Below, piece by piece: positions 319 to 50,334 of a stretch of 50,780 bases of DNA. The first letter of the stretch is position 1, and every line of letters begins with the position of its first letter. The notes below the pieces were generated by a model. That model made no database searches. It was not told the DNA's origin and worked only from the letters and a program-made list of their open reading frames with translations. Source of the stretch: Oscillospiraceae bacterium (GTDB lineage: Bacteria; Bacillota; Clostridia; Oscillospirales; Oscillospiraceae); NCBI GenBank assembly GCA_017395935.1, contig JAFQNL010000044.1, forward strand, positions 1 to 50,780. The letters are read 5' to 3'. The translations under genes were made by a program, and so were the position numbers.

Positions 319-885
319 TTACTTGCAGCGGGACAGATACTCGCCGGTACGGGTGTCGACAGTGATGCGGTCGCCGATGTTGATGAACAGGGGGACACGG
401 ATCTCAGCGCCGGTTTCCAGAGTAGCGGGCTTCAGGGTGTTGGTGGCGGTGTTGCCGGCCAGACCGGGCTCGGTCTCGGTGACTTCCAGATCGATGAAGT
501 TGGGAGCTTCGATACCGAAGACGCTGCCCTTGTAGGACAGGACCTTGCACTCGGTGTTCTCCTTGACAAAGCGGAAGGCTTCACCCAGCTGATCAGCGTT
601 CAGGGGAATCATGTCATAGGTCTCGGTGTCCATGAAGTAGTACAGATCGCCGTCGGAGTAGCTGTACTCCATGACGCGGCGCTCAACGAAAGCGGACTCG
701 AACTTGGCAGAGGGGTTGAAGGAGTTTTCGGTGACAGCGCCGGTAATGACGTTTCTCATCTTGGTGCGCACGAAAGCGGCGCCCTTGCCGGGCTTAACGT
801 GCTGGAACTCGACGACCTGCATAACCTTGCCTTCATACTCAAAGGTGACGCCATTTCGGAAATCGCCTGCAGTGATCATAGCCAT
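319..885 (-). CDS. efp: Translation elongation factor P
   Basis: EF-P, 188 aa, binds between the P and E sites of the ribosome and relieves stalling at polyproline stretches. The N-terminal KOW-like domain carries the loop [12 protein letters not shown] (Lys34 at the tip, the position modified in many bacteria), followed by two OB-fold domains; the length is normal for the family. The start chosen is the ATG at 885 because GGAGG lies 8 bases upstream; an in-frame ATG further upstream has no such site. It lies downstream of the Spo0A-like gene on the same strand but has its own promoter (947-975) and a strong terminator. A modification enzyme for Lys34 is not seen nearby. Confidence 0.97.
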
Positions 886-946
886 ATTGGTAGCCTCCAT
901 ATCTTTTCTATTAGGGCATAATAGCCCCATTCACATTCGCAGGTTT

Positions 947-975
947 ATTTTATCCCATTTCACAGCCTATTGCAA
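947..975 (-). promoter_or_regulatory. Sigma-A promoter of efp
   Basis: Read on the minus strand: -35 TTGCAA (975-970), 17-nt spacer, -10 TAAAAT (952-947), about 60 bases before the efp start codon. Confidence 0.65.
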
Positions 976-1022: not shown

Positions 1023-1769
1023 TTAGCCCCACATTCGTTCCCGTCCGGCCAATTGCTGGGACAGGACGGCAACAAAGACGGAGTTACTGGGACAGCGCCC
1101 TTCCCTTGCCTGATGAGGGAAAAGACGGCACAGCTGGGCCAGATTGCCTTCGACCCAGACTCTGCCGACGGCATGGCGGATGGTTCGCTCCACGGCCCCC
1201 GCGCTGGTTCGGTGTCTCCGGGCAATCTGAGGATAGACCACCTTGGTAATCCCGCAGACAGCCTCAGGGTCCTCCAGCGCAATGACCAGCGCGTCGGTCA
1301 GATAGTGGTATCCCTTGATATTGGGCTGAAGGCCCAGATTCCATAGCAGACGCCCGGCCCGATAGCGCAGGCTCTCTTCCGCAGGGATGCCCATCTGCTC
1401 TCCCGCGGCCAGACGGATATGCTCAGCCAGCGCCATAGGCGCAATGGGCTTGATCATAAAATAGTCCGCACCCCGCTGGACCGCTCCGGTTACCAGGCCC
1501 CGGTCTCCAAACAGAGAGCAGGCAAGGACCTTCACCCTGTCTCCCAGCTCGCCCCGAACTGCCTCCAGCACTTCCAGCCCGTCTCCGCCCCGAAGAGCCA
1601 TCTCCATAACCAATACCTGCGCCTCTGTCTGCCGTATCAAAGGCAGAACCTGATCGGCCTGACCGGTTATGGCCGCGATATGAATATCTTCCTGCTGCTC
1701 CAGTTCCTCTGCAAGGGCTCTGCACAGTTCCTCGTCAAAGTCCGCCATCACCACTCTGATCTTTTCCAC
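1023..1769 (-). CDS. Spo0A-like response regulator lacking the phospho-acceptor Asp
   Basis: A second Spo0A-type protein, 248 aa, essentially the length of the genuine Spo0A at 49392-50141. It has an N-terminal receiver domain (about 1-125) and the Spo0A C-terminal DNA-binding domain (about 140-245). The recognition-helix region reads SAGAVERTIRHAVGRVW against [15 protein letters not shown] in Spo0A. In the receiver the block [13 protein letters not shown] of Spo0A is VLVMEMALRGGDG, so Asp56 is Glu56 (codon GAG). The first pocket Asp and the Lys of FMIKP remain. The start is taken at GTG 1769 (GGACGGTGA five bases upstream) rather than GTG 1778. The protein probably binds Spo0A boxes without phosphorylation, or competes with Spo0A (inference). 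It has its own promoter at 1802-1830. Confidence 0.88.
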   Translation of the reverse strand: MEKIRVVMADFDEELCRALAEELEQQEDIHIAAITGQADQVLPLIRQTEAQVLVMEMALRGGDGLEVLEAVRGELGDRVKVLACSLFGDRGLVTGAVQRGADYFMIKPIAPMALAEHIRLAAGEQMGIPAEESLRYRAGRLLWNLGLQPNIKGYHYLTDALVIALEDPEAVCGITKVVYPQIARRHRTSAGAVERTIRHAVGRVWVEGNLAQLCRLFPHQAREGRCPSNSVFVAVLSQQLAGRERMWG

Positions 1770-1801: not shown

Positions 1802-1830
1802 AGTCTATCACACTCCAAGTTTTTTCGCAA
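1802..1830 (-). promoter_or_regulatory. Sigma-A promoter of the Spo0A-like gene
   Basis: On the minus strand, -35 TTGCGA (1830-1825), 17-nt spacer, -10 TAGACT (1807-1802). The nearest Spo0A-box-like site starts 10 bases upstream of the -35 hexamer. Confidence 0.55.
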
Positions 1831-1839
1831 TCAGAACTA

Positions 1840-1887
1840 TGTCGAACCGATCGTTTTTTATTCGACTCTCTTCGACATGACTCGACA
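1840..1887. promoter_or_regulatory. Cluster of four Spo0A-box-like sites
   Basis: TGTCGAA at 1840-1846, TTCGACT at 1861-1867, TTCGACA at 1871-1877 and CTCGACA at 1881-1887. The core TGTCGAA (or its complement TTCGACA) is the known Spo0A-box core. The last three share one orientation and repeat every 10 bp, one helical turn; the first is inverted. The cluster lies between the promoter of the Spo0A-like gene and the leuA promoter, so it could act on either. Confidence 0.6.
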
Positions 1888-1944: not shown

Positions 1945-2226
1945 ACTTGTTAAAGACGTGGAAGGGAAAAAAGATCAGGACGCCCTTTTCAGAGAGTTGG
2001 CGGCTGCTGCGAGCCAACATGGTGCCCCTGATGGATAACTGTTCCCGGAGTCGACGCCCTGAACCGCCCTCTGTAAAGGGTGCAGTAGGGACGTACGGGA
2101 GGTCCCGTTACAGACCACGGCCTTGTCAGAGGCCAATGAGGGCAGATATGTGAGTATCTGCTGAACCAGGGTGGTACCGTGTATGAATTTTACACCCCTG
2201 ACCGATAACATCGGTCAGGGGTTTTT
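1945..2226 (+). ncRNA. T-box riboswitch leader (probably tRNA-Leu sensing)
   Basis: A T-box leader that couples uncharged tRNA to read-through into leuA. The hallmark T-box AGGGTGGTACCG is at 2168-2179. Stem I contains AGAGAG (1991-1996) and a distal GTTGGC/GCCAAC helix (1996-2001 with 2013-2018). Flanking helices ATCAGG/CCTGAT (1974-1979 with 2027-2032) and GGGAA/TTCCC (1964-1968 with 2042-2046) frame an internal loop whose 3' side contains CTG at 2039-2041, a plausible leucine specifier. The regulated terminator is an 11-bp hairpin at 2195-2221 followed by T5. The T-box call is firm; the specifier triplet is an inference from the folding and the downstream gene. Confidence 0.9.
2195..2226 (+). 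terminator. T-box-regulated terminator
   Basis: CCCCTGACCGA (2195-2205) pairs with TCGGTCAGGGG (2211-2221), followed by TTTTT. This is the terminator that the T-box antiterminator competes with. Confidence 0.9.
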
Positions 2227-2266: not shown

Positions 2267-3967
2267 ATGAAAGGTTACGAGAAATATATCCCCTTTGTCC
2301 CCCAGCCCATCCAAAACCGGACCTGGCCGGACAAGGTCATTACCAAGGCCCCCAGATGGTGCTCGGTGGATCTCCGGGACGGCAATCAGGCGCTGATCGA
2401 CCCCATGAACGTGCAGGAGAAGCTGGATCTGTTCCACTGTCTGGTAGATATCGGCGTCAAAGAGATTGAGGTAGGATTCCCCTCAGCCTCGGACACCGAG
2501 TATCTCTTCCTGCGCACGCTGATCGAAGAGGGCCATATCCCCGACGACGTATATATTCAGGTACTGGTACAGGCCCGGCCTCATCTGATTCGCCGGACCT
2601 TTGAGGCCATCAAGGGCTGTCGTCATGTGATTTTCCACTTCTACAACTCTACCTCCACCCTCCAGCGGAAGGTCGTCTTCCAGACCGACGTGGAGGGGGT
2701 AAAGAAGATCGCTGTGGACGCAGCCGAGATGATCTACGAGATGAGCCAGCCCTATCTGGCCGATGGCATGGATCTGATCTACGAATACTCTCCCGAGTCC
2801 TTCATGGGCACCGAGATGGATGCGGCTGACGAGATTTGCGCCGCCGTTTTGGACGCCCTTCACGCCGACGAGGAGCACAAGGTCATTCTTAACCTGCCCA
2901 CTACGGTGGAAAACTGTATGCCCAACCAGTTTGCCGATGAGTTGGAGTACTTTATCCGCAATCTCCCCGGCCGGGAGCGGGCCATTATCTCCCTGCATCC
3001 CCACAACGACCGGGGCACCGGCGTGGCGACAGCCGAGCTGGGCATGCTGGCCGGCGGCGAGCGGATTGAGGCCACCCTCTTTGGAAACGGTGAGCGGACG
3101 GGCAACGTGGACATGGTAACGCTGGCCATGAATATGTACACTCAGGGCATCGACCCCCAGCTGGACTTCTCCGAGATCAACAAGATCCGGGACGTCTACG
3201 AGCGGGTGACCAAGATGCGGATCGGTGAGCGCCAGCCCTATGTAGGCAAGCTGGTCTTTACCGCTTTCTCCGGCAGCCATCAGGACGCCATCAACAAGGG
3301 CACCCAGTATATGCGCCAGTCGGGCACCGACAAATGGGAGGTTCCCTATCTGCCCATTGACCCGGCCGACGTGGGTCGGGCCTATGAGCCCATTATCCGG
3401 ATCAACAGCCAGTCGGGTAAAGGGGGCACTGCCTTTGTTATGGCCCACAACTTCGGTTTCAATCTGCCCAAGGCCATGCATCCCGAGTTTGGCGCCGTGG
3501 TCCAGCAGGCCTCGGACGCCTATGGCAAGGAGCTGCTGCCTCAGGCTATCTATCATCTCTTCGAGGAGGAGTACCTCAATGTGGACGGCCCTTACAAGCT
3601 GCTGAGCCACAGTTTCCAGGACTTCACTCAGAACGGCGAGAGCCACGTCTCCTTCCAGGGCACCATCCAGCACACGGATACCATTTTCCAGGTTTCCGGC
3701 GTGGGCAACGGCCCCATCGACGCCTTCTTCAACGCCATCAAGGGAGAGAAGATGAGCCGCTATACCTTTGCCGACTACTCCGAGCACGCCATCAATACCG
3801 GCTCCAACGCCAAGGCCGTGGCCTATATCCATCTGAAGACCCCCGAGGATCGGGACGTCTTCGGCGTTGGTATCCACAGTAATATCTCCATGGCCTCCAT
3901 TAAAGGCATTATGTGCGCCATTAACCGGGCCAAGATCATGGAGAAGCGGATGAAGGCGACAAACTGA
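2267..3967 (+). CDS. leuA: 2-isopropylmalate synthase (alpha-IPM synthase)
   Basis: Condenses acetyl-CoA with 2-oxoisovalerate in the first step committed to leucine. The protein is 566 aa, in the size class of the yeast-like LeuA type. The HMGL-like TIM barrel begins near residue 28 with WCSVDLRDGNQAL, which carries the metal and catalytic residues, and includes HPHNDRGTG; the last ~130 residues form the LeuA dimerisation/regulatory domain expected to bind leucine. The ATG at 2267 has AGGAGG about 8 bases upstream. The gene stands alone behind a T-box leader and ends at a strong hairpin, so it is controlled by charged tRNA and probably by feedback inhibition. leuBCD are not in this window. 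Confidence 0.96.
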   Translation: MKGYEKYIPFVPQPIQNRTWPDKVITKAPRWCSVDLRDGNQALIDPMNVQEKLDLFHCLVDIGVKEIEVGFPSASDTEYLFLRTLIEEGHIPDDVYIQVLVQARPHLIRRTFEAIKGCRHVIFHFYNSTSTLQRKVVFQTDVEGVKKIAVDAAEMIYEMSQPYLADGMDLIYEYSPESFMGTEMDAADEICAAVLDALHADEEHKVILNLPTTVENCMPNQFADELEYFIRNLPGRERAIISLHPHNDRGTGVATAELGMLAGGERIEATLFGNGERTGNVDMVTLAMNMYTQGIDPQLDFSEINKIRDVYERVTKMRIGERQPYVGKLVFTAFSGSHQDAINKGTQYMRQSGTDKWEVPYLPIDPADVGRAYEPIIRINSQSGKGGTAFVMAHNFGFNLPKAMHPEFGAVVQQASDAYGKELLPQAIYHLFEEEYLNVDGPYKLLSHSFQDFTQNGESHVSFQGTIQHTDTIFQVSGVGNGPIDAFFNAIKGEKMSRYTFADYSEHAINTGSNAKAVAYIHLKTPEDRDVFGVGIHSNISMASIKGIMCAINRAKIMEKRMKATN

Positions 3968-49391: not shown

Positions 49392-50141
49392 TTACTGCTC
49401 CTTGCGCTGGAGACGGAGGCGATCGGAGATCATGGCGATGAACTCGGAATTGGTAGGCTTTCCCTTGGCGTTGGAGACGGTATAGCCGAAGTACTTCTGG
49501 AGCGTTTCCAGATCTCCCCGGTCCCAGGCCACCTCAATGGCATGGCGGATGGCCCGCTCTACCCGGCTGGCGGTCGTCCCGTAGCGCTTGGCCACCTCGG
49601 GATAGAGAACCTTGGTGACGGCGTTAATGACCTCCATATCATCGACGGCGATCATAATAGCCTCCCGGAGATACTGGTAACCCTTGATATGGGCCGGAAC
49701 ACCGATCTCATGAATAATGGAAGTAATGAGTGTCTCCAGATTTTGATAGGCCTTGGGCGTCACCGAGGCACTGCTGCGCAGCAGCCGGACCCGCTCCACC
49801 ACTGCCTGTCCCTGATTGGGTTTGGTCAGGAAGTAGTCGGCTCCCAGCTCGGCTGTCCGGGCGGCCACTCCGCCGGCCACAAAGCTGGAATAAACCAGGA
49901 TGCCCGGCTTTCTGGCCTCCTGTGTATTGATCTGGCTGAGCAGATCCAGTCCGTCCATGCCATAGAGGACCAGATCGGTAATCAATACATCGGCTCCCGT
50001 CTCCCGAAGCAGACCGATCACCTTCGCTCCTTCTCCTACTGCGCCGACCACCTGAATATCTCCCTCGGCAGAGAGGATCTCCGCCAGAGCCTGACGGCTC
50101 TCCTCGTCGGCATCGGCAATGACCACTTTGATCAGATTCAT
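49392..50141 (-). CDS. spo0A: Sporulation master regulator Spo0A
   Basis: 249 aa response regulator that commits the cell to sporulation when phosphorylated. The receiver domain (1-125) has the acidic pocket in [10 protein letters not shown], phospho-acceptor Asp56 in [13 protein letters not shown], and the conserved Lys in YFLTKP. The DNA-binding domain (about 140-245) carries [35 protein letters not shown] and the recognition helix [15 protein letters not shown]. The start at ATG 50141 gives the normal length. Two Spo0A-box-like sites lie upstream (50281 and 50328). spoIVB, the usual upstream neighbour in Firmicutes, is not found; a serine recombinase end is there instead. Confidence 0.97.
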
Positions 50142-50280: not shown

Positions 50281-50334
50281 TTCGACTAATTGCATTTTTA
50301 TTTCAAAAAAGTTATAATGTCAGTTCTTTCGACA
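50281..50334. promoter_or_regulatory. Spo0A-box-like sites upstream of spo0A
   Basis: TTCGACT at 50281-50287 and the perfect core TTCGACA at 50328-50334, about 140-190 bases before the start codon. The 434-base gap 50142-50575 contains no gene; I could not assign a convincing sigma-A or sigma-H promoter. Confidence 0.5.

Follow-up and report, generated by a model that had tools for sequence, protein, structure and literature searches.

Spo0A is usually viewed as a single, phosphorylation-gated master switch. A diverged second Spo0A of a spore former was described in Clostridium thermocellum as Clo1313_0637, which is 56% identical to the first copy (PMC4890492). Receivers lacking the acceptor aspartate form a known class in which Glu is the commonest substitute (26%), and an Asp-to-Glu exchange alone is often insufficient, Spo0A being named among the cases (PMC4395418). 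ChxR, RitR, and CmrT share a receiver fold without acceptor Asp (PMC4395418, PMC12632262), and for CmrT control by expression level, through transcription, was proposed (PMC12632262). The isolated DNA-binding domain of Spo0A was reported to bind its targets bypassing phosphorylation; the known core of the 0A box is TGTCGAA, with contacts at G2, C4, and G5 (PMC3485338), and autoregulation of spo0A via 0A boxes is known (PMC12090719). Searches of the open-licence literature yielded neither a Spo0A with a D56E exchange nor a description of a Spo0A copy that has Glu56 or phased boxes at its own promoter; the second Spo0A encountered there was the C. thermocellum case. The available parts of PMC6136694 and PMC11210211 held nothing on Spo0A paralogs.

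The window analyzed here is a stretch of 50,780 nucleotides from an Oscillospiraceae bacterium. It carries a canonical spo0A and a paralog that resembles Spo0A as defined by TIGR02875 (B. subtilis, C. difficile) in its receiver and Spo0A_C architecture, its length, its recognition residues, and its 0A boxes. It differs in lacking the phospho-acceptor Asp and Asp11, in scoring under the equivalog cut-off, and in diverging very fast. Like Clo1313_0637, as far as the available text describes it, it is a diverged second Spo0A; the two DNA-binding domains in the window are, however, only 36% identical to each other. In the cited passages, ChxR, RitR, and CmrT are not described as regulators with a Spo0A_C domain, and two congeners of the organism have dropped the receiver of the paralog altogether.

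The paralog, its receiver pocket, and its surroundings

Features of the locus are collected in Table 1. The first-pass annotation had placed the gene correctly, the strand (minus) being added here, and the Glu codon that it had read opposite Asp56 of the copy at 49392..50141 was confirmed by sequence. The residue limits of the Response_reg match were moved by 2 to fit the 248-aa numbering.

Table 1. Positions of the features discussed, numbered from the first nucleotide of the window.
Feature	Position	Strand	Basis or remark
Spo0A2 paralog, CDS	1023..1769	-	GTG start at 1769; 248 aa plus stop
Pseudo-receiver domain (Response_reg, PF00072)	1413..1748	-	Pfam match, predicted fold, 5wq0 match
Codon 56, GAG (Glu), replacing the phospho-acceptor Asp	1602..1604	-	sequence read
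Spo0A_C DNA-binding domain (PF08769)	1050..1349	-	Pfam; E213, R214, R217, H218 (B. subtilis numbers) kept
Weak sigma-A-like promoter, TTGCGA-17-TAGACT	1802..1830	-	8/12 matches, by eye
Inverted consensus 0A box, TGTCGAA on + strand (TTCGACA)	1840..1846	+	sequence match
0A-type box 3, AGTCGAA	1861..1867	-	10 bp from box 2
0A box 2, TGTCGAA (consensus)	1871..1877	-	10 bp from boxes 1 and 3
0A-type box 1, TGTCGAG	1881..1887	-	10 bp from box 2
Canonical spo0A, same genome	49392..50141	-	Asp56; TIGR02875 278.6 bits
TGTCGAA upstream of canonical spo0A	50328..50334	-	sequence match
Presumed efp (elongation factor P), downstream neighbor	319..930	-	ORF list
Separate promoter-like site before efp, TTGCAA-17-TAAAAT	947..975	-	promoter scan
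Presumed leuA-like gene, divergent neighbor	2267..3967	+	ORF list
T-box leader of the divergent leuA-like gene	1950..2202	+	sequence scan

Both domains of the paralog were recovered by Pfam, Response_reg at E 3.9e-12 and Spo0A_C at E 1.5e-26. Using TIGR02875 with its cut-off of 200 bits, the canonical copy passed and the paralog (154.9 bits) did not. No other Spo0A_C gene was found in the genome (97% complete) at E <= 0.001. All four recognition-helix positions listed in Table 1, which we take to be the base-contacting residues of Spo0A, were kept in the paralog.

In the receiver pocket, Asp10, Ser85, and Lys107 were retained. Where Spo0A is marked by Asp56 and the acidic pair Asp10-Asp11, the paralog reads Glu56, Asp10, and Phe11, so that the earlier description of a well-kept acidic pocket and Lys applies to the three retained residues and not to Asp11. 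Loss of Asp11 alone does not indicate decay, since related canonical-type Spo0A proteins often lack it too, position 11 being Ala in 22 of 34 such rows from related genomes. Being a predicted receiver fold without acceptor Asp, the protein would belong to the Asp-less receivers or pseudo-receivers. An AlphaFold model of the paralog (five rows) had a mean pLDDT of 86 and a pTM of 0.53. Its receiver superimposed on the Spo0A receiver structure 5wq0 with an rmsd of 1.3-1.6 and its C-terminal part on Spo0A 1fc3 with an rmsd of 2.1. The top structure matches by E-value were full-length regulators, for example DesR and VraR, and these fitted poorly overall, so the relative placement of the two domains in the model is unsure.

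The neighboring ORFs, judged by their sequences, are presumably efp and a leuA-like gene. Linkage to efp was dropped as a mark of the family: the gene lay directly upstream in 5 of 29 efp neighborhoods, some of which end at contig ends (e.g., G011 and G021), and other clade members were located elsewhere. In genome G026, a small stand-alone Spo0A_C gene lay about 2 kb from efp. A small ORF at 1975-2211 (minus strand) was dropped as a conserved gene, as it is antisense to the leuA T-box. Elsewhere in the genome, SpoIVA scored above its cut-off and matches to SpoIIE and SigG stayed below the curated cut-offs; spore formation is therefore likely, not certain.

A clade of Spo0A duplicates in the genus

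Following a peptide-pattern search of a genome contig collection, which gave three loci and no close relative among them, congeners were used instead. Spo0A_C was present in 92 of the 98 genomes searched as relatives, the own genome included, and 27 of the 32 genomes of the genus had at least two matches. In at least 16 of these 32 genomes, by our count and excluding prophage-type stand-alone domains, one Spo0A_C copy lacks the acceptor Asp or the entire receiver. Loci L091 to L093 were missed by the domain search. ORFs shorter than 190 aa were kept out of the full-length alignment, and rows without enough receiver were excluded (2 of 32 full-length paralogs, 1 of 35 canonical-type proteins).

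The name Spo0A2 was coined here for a genus-level clade of Spo0A duplicates from 13 genomes. In the receiver tree (29 rows), nine second copies, that of the window included, formed one clade (support 99/97) adjoining seven canonical Spo0A receivers of the own subclade (90/90), and Spo0A2 therefore looks like a late duplication. The 13 Spo0A2 rows also grouped in the DNA-binding-domain tree, which comprised 58 of 60 rows after exclusion of two (80/87). Both trees were flagged for some long branches that meet, and the join of locus L086 with group A, a set of five closely related Spo0A2 genes, is among those carrying this warning. The two trees, built from separate domains, thus both place the gene in one clade of genus-level spo0A duplicates. 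The Spo0A2 DNA-binding domain of the window genome was 32-42% identical to those of other genomes (12 comparisons), against 93-96% for the canonical domain (10 comparisons).

Conservation of Glu56 in relatives had been put forward in the first-pass annotation as a check, with Asp in close relatives as counter-evidence, and the outcome was divided. Position 56 is Glu in six of the nine Spo0A2 receivers (those of the window, of G010, and of G005, G015, G021, and G023, which make up four of the five group A genes), Asp in two (G007 of group A, and G012), and Asn in one (G011); in G003 and G018 there is no receiver. The six Glu56 rows and G007 formed a weak clade (81/58). Across the 30 receiver-bearing paralog rows, the acceptor position was Asp in 14, Glu in 7, Gly in 7, Ser in 1, and Asn in 1. 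Lys108 (B. subtilis number) was kept in 7/7 Glu56 rows, 10/14 Asp56 rows, and 0/9 rows with Gly, Ser, or Asn, these rows being related; one of the seven Glu56 rows comes from outside the genus. At position 10, the Glu56 rows have Asp once (the window protein), Glu four times, and Val twice, and none of the seven has an acidic residue at position 11. Among canonical-type Spo0A proteins of order-level relatives, the acceptor was Asn in 5 of 34 rows, three of which have Met or Leu replacing the pocket Lys; four of these loci (L004, L008, L015, and L020) represent two families with two genomes apiece, and the fifth (L038) is the additional Spo0A copy of a genome that has two.

In G003 and G018 the receiver is gone, and a lone DNA-binding domain lies at the same leuA-efp site, starting at its own ATG after an RBS-like stretch. 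The EF-P proteins closest to that of the window are those of the same two genomes (94% and 93%, respectively); the tree of canonical Spo0A receivers did not pick them out as nearest to the window genome.

Proteins of about 110 aa that consist of a lone Spo0A_C domain ("minis") were seen in congeners near ORFs for phage-type lysozyme or peptidoglycan-binding endolysin in six of eight loci, as judged by eye (L059, L060, L062, L063, L066, and L077; not L065 and L072), directly upstream in four. Several of them are preceded by TGTCGAA or TGTCG units spaced 10 or 20 bp. The minis of L059 and L080 match PHROG_24603 (111 aa, function not known), which the window protein matched at E 1.1e-19. The phage minis share the Spo0A_C domain, which stands alone in them; they differ in lying mostly beside phage-type lysis genes and in forming a separate clade in the DNA-binding-domain tree. 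In a viral contig collection, nine loci matched Spo0A, two of which were used, as alignment rows only; no relative of the minis was confirmed there.

Ratios of dN/dS were computed separately for the receiver and DNA-binding halves, split approximately at 55% of the alignment. In group A (10 pairs), they were 0.21-0.40 and 0.05-0.27, respectively; in canonical Spo0A (45 pairs), 0.07-0.48 and 0-0.07. Group A is thus constrained in both domains; its DNA-binding half is less constrained than that of Spo0A, and its receiver half is within the range of Spo0A. In group B, whose seven genes have Gly56 and fall outside the Spo0A2 clade, the ratios were 0.35-0.74 and 0.12-0.54 (21 pairs). The earlier argument against simple decay accordingly gained purifying selection in both domains of the Glu56 group A from several genomes, that is, in genes other than the one in the window.

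Phased boxes and the recognition helix

Upstream of the window gene, three 0A-type boxes are spaced at 10 bp, followed by an inverted consensus box (Table 1). The weak promoter assigned there by eye was not reported by the promoter scan. In the whole genome, the arrangement TGTCGAA-N0-30-TTCGACA occurs at one place, upstream of this gene. A predicted link of the paralog to 0A boxes agrees with the sequence, in that consensus boxes were found at its own promoter and the recognition residues are kept. Two simpler signals were rejected: a lone TGTCGAA, which occurs 6 times in the window with 4.8 expected, and TGTCG-N5-TGTCG by itself, with 5 genome matches against 6 for the reversed-pattern control.

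A direct pair of TCG[AG] units 10 bp apart was present within 170 bp upstream in 10 of the 11 Spo0A2 genes for which this sequence could be read; five of the ten belong to group A, whose members are close relatives and therefore not independent. This count omits G008 and G025 (contig ends), and the start in G010 was placed by alignment rather than at a start codon. The exception, the Spo0A2 gene of G011, has a canonical recognition helix and no phased pair. Among the other ORFs of the fetched loci, the same pair was found upstream of 18 of 1215, and control spacings gave 17 (9 bp), 6 (11 bp), 16 (12 bp), and 1 (8 bp); this background has overlapping loci and may include Spo0A_C genes that went unrecognised.

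In 55 paralog regions, five of them nearly without upstream sequence and still counted, TCGA pairs were most frequent at spacings of 10 bp (20 pairs) and 20 bp (12 pairs), and each remaining spacing from 4 to 45 bp gave 0-5. The 816 background blocks, mostly coding, held one pair at 10 bp and one at 20 bp. By our count, 24 of the 55 regions have a phased TCGA pair, that of L044 possibly lying inside the ORF. The 35 canonical-type spo0A regions had 9 pairs at 10 bp and 5 at 20 bp, in line with the autoregulation of spo0A described in the available part of PMC12090719.

The sequence of the boxes was compared with that of the helix. The window gene and group B (with E, R, R, and H in 6/7) have TGTCGAA or TGTCGAG boxes. 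In group A, R214 is replaced by Gln and H218 by Ser in 5/5, and CTCGA pairs were found in 5/5; box position 2 is therefore C, not G. In L058 (Ile at 218) and L086 (Ala at 213, Glu at 218), box position 1 is C or G. The units read TGTCGG in L078 and in the gene of G018, which carry yet other residues at 218 (by eye). There are exceptions: the prophage-type minis keep TGTCGAA although position 218 is Thr in them (by eye); an additional TGTCGAA is present once in L075 of group A; and in L055 the helix reads E, R, R, H but a pair is absent. This co-variation of box and helix suggests that the proteins may bind their own promoters.

Some further arrangements were noted. Group B (L046 to L052, seven congeners) represents second Spo0A copies with Gly56 and no pocket Lys, and upstream of all seven lies an ATCGAA-TGTCGAA-type pair 10 bp apart (TGTCGAG in L049). 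Tandem TGTCGT-type boxes 10 bp apart occur beside very divergent Spo0A_C-like ORFs in L090, L091, and L093. In the own genome, locus L123 has three TGTCG units 10 bp apart around position 1501 of contig C30 (G000); they are not an obvious promoter, as they lie between two seemingly convergent ORFs.

Regulation of the paralog

On these data, the paralog is probably a Spo0A-derived regulator that is independent of phosphorylation and is dosed by transcription through 0A-type boxes. Control by amount rather than by phosphorylation is probable because the phosphate site is lost, the receiver can be dropped, and the gene has its own promoter with phased 0A-type boxes. The sequences favor independence from phosphorylation, best seen in the loss of the receiver, together with control at the promoter. 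The receiver would no longer take phosphate in the usual way and would act as a fixed module for dimerisation or scaffolding, its pocket possibly held in an active-like state by Glu56 and Lys107. The DNA-binding domain would be active once the protein is made, binding DNA without phosphate, and activity would follow the amount of protein, set by transcription from the promoter with helically phased 0A-type boxes. These boxes could be occupied by Spo0A~P, by the paralog itself, or by both. The product, which may activate or repress, would be a partner, by feed-forward or feedback, in the program of sporulation and stationary phase, and it probably shares sites with Spo0A, since recognition residues and boxes are here still of the canonical type. 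From the first-pass proposal of a constitutive or competing Spo0A-box binder, a Spo0A-derived predicted DNA-binding protein without the usual acceptor is upheld; control at the promoter goes beyond it.

The retention of Lys108 in every Glu56 row, one from outside the genus, the canonical residues checked in the recognition helix, and the place of Glu as commonest substitute in Asp-less receivers (PMC4395418) would also suit a phosphomimic or competitor at Spo0A boxes, in which Glu56 holds the protein in its active form, so that the Spo0A regulon is constitutively switched on or else blocked. We consider this unlikely. Glu alone is often insufficient, with Spo0A named as a case in the available text of the same paper, the clade includes members with Asp, Asn, or no receiver, and the Glu56 rows vary at position 10 and are never acidic at position 11. 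Competition for standard Spo0A boxes is unlikely as a shared function, because the boxes at several relatives' own promoters differ from TGTCGAA. That difference, which accompanies changes of the helix in group A, L058, L086, L078, and the G018 gene, would instead fit a copy that has parted from the Spo0A regulon, with the protein of each species reading its own diverged boxes at its own promoter and a few targets. Such a role is rather improbable: the independent groups are few, the prophage minis, L075, and L055 depart from the pattern, and the boxes and helix of the window gene are still canonical.

A redundant spo0A drifting toward loss, with Glu56 one among several neutral losses, would account for the very fast divergence of the Spo0A2 DNA-binding domain relative to the canonical one, the mixed acceptor residues, the missing receivers, and the receiver dN/dS of up to 0.74 in the unrelated group B. 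It is nevertheless highly improbable, given that the Spo0A2 genes that were read have open frames, purifying selection acts on group A, the receiver-less versions retain an RBS-like stretch and an ATG, and phased boxes precede nearly all Spo0A2 genes with upstream sequence. The reading preferred here remains that of a regulator independent of phosphorylation and dosed at its promoter. A wider scenario is possible, though we put it forward as tentative: a duplicated master regulator may have shed phosphate control and given rise to private self-binding switches whose helix and boxes change together by species, prophages may carry receiver-less versions behind TGTCGAA, and host and phages may contend over the Spo0A box code.

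A second Spo0A and Asp-less receivers were known already; a Glu56 copy whose own promoter carries phased boxes appears, from the literature searched, to be new. The locus opens a test of how pseudo-receiver regulators are controlled, here seemingly by transcription, and of how a duplicated regulator diverges from its parent in DNA specificity. Should the copy share the sites of Spo0A, models that explain sporulation entry in these bacteria solely by Spo0A phosphorylation would not be complete.
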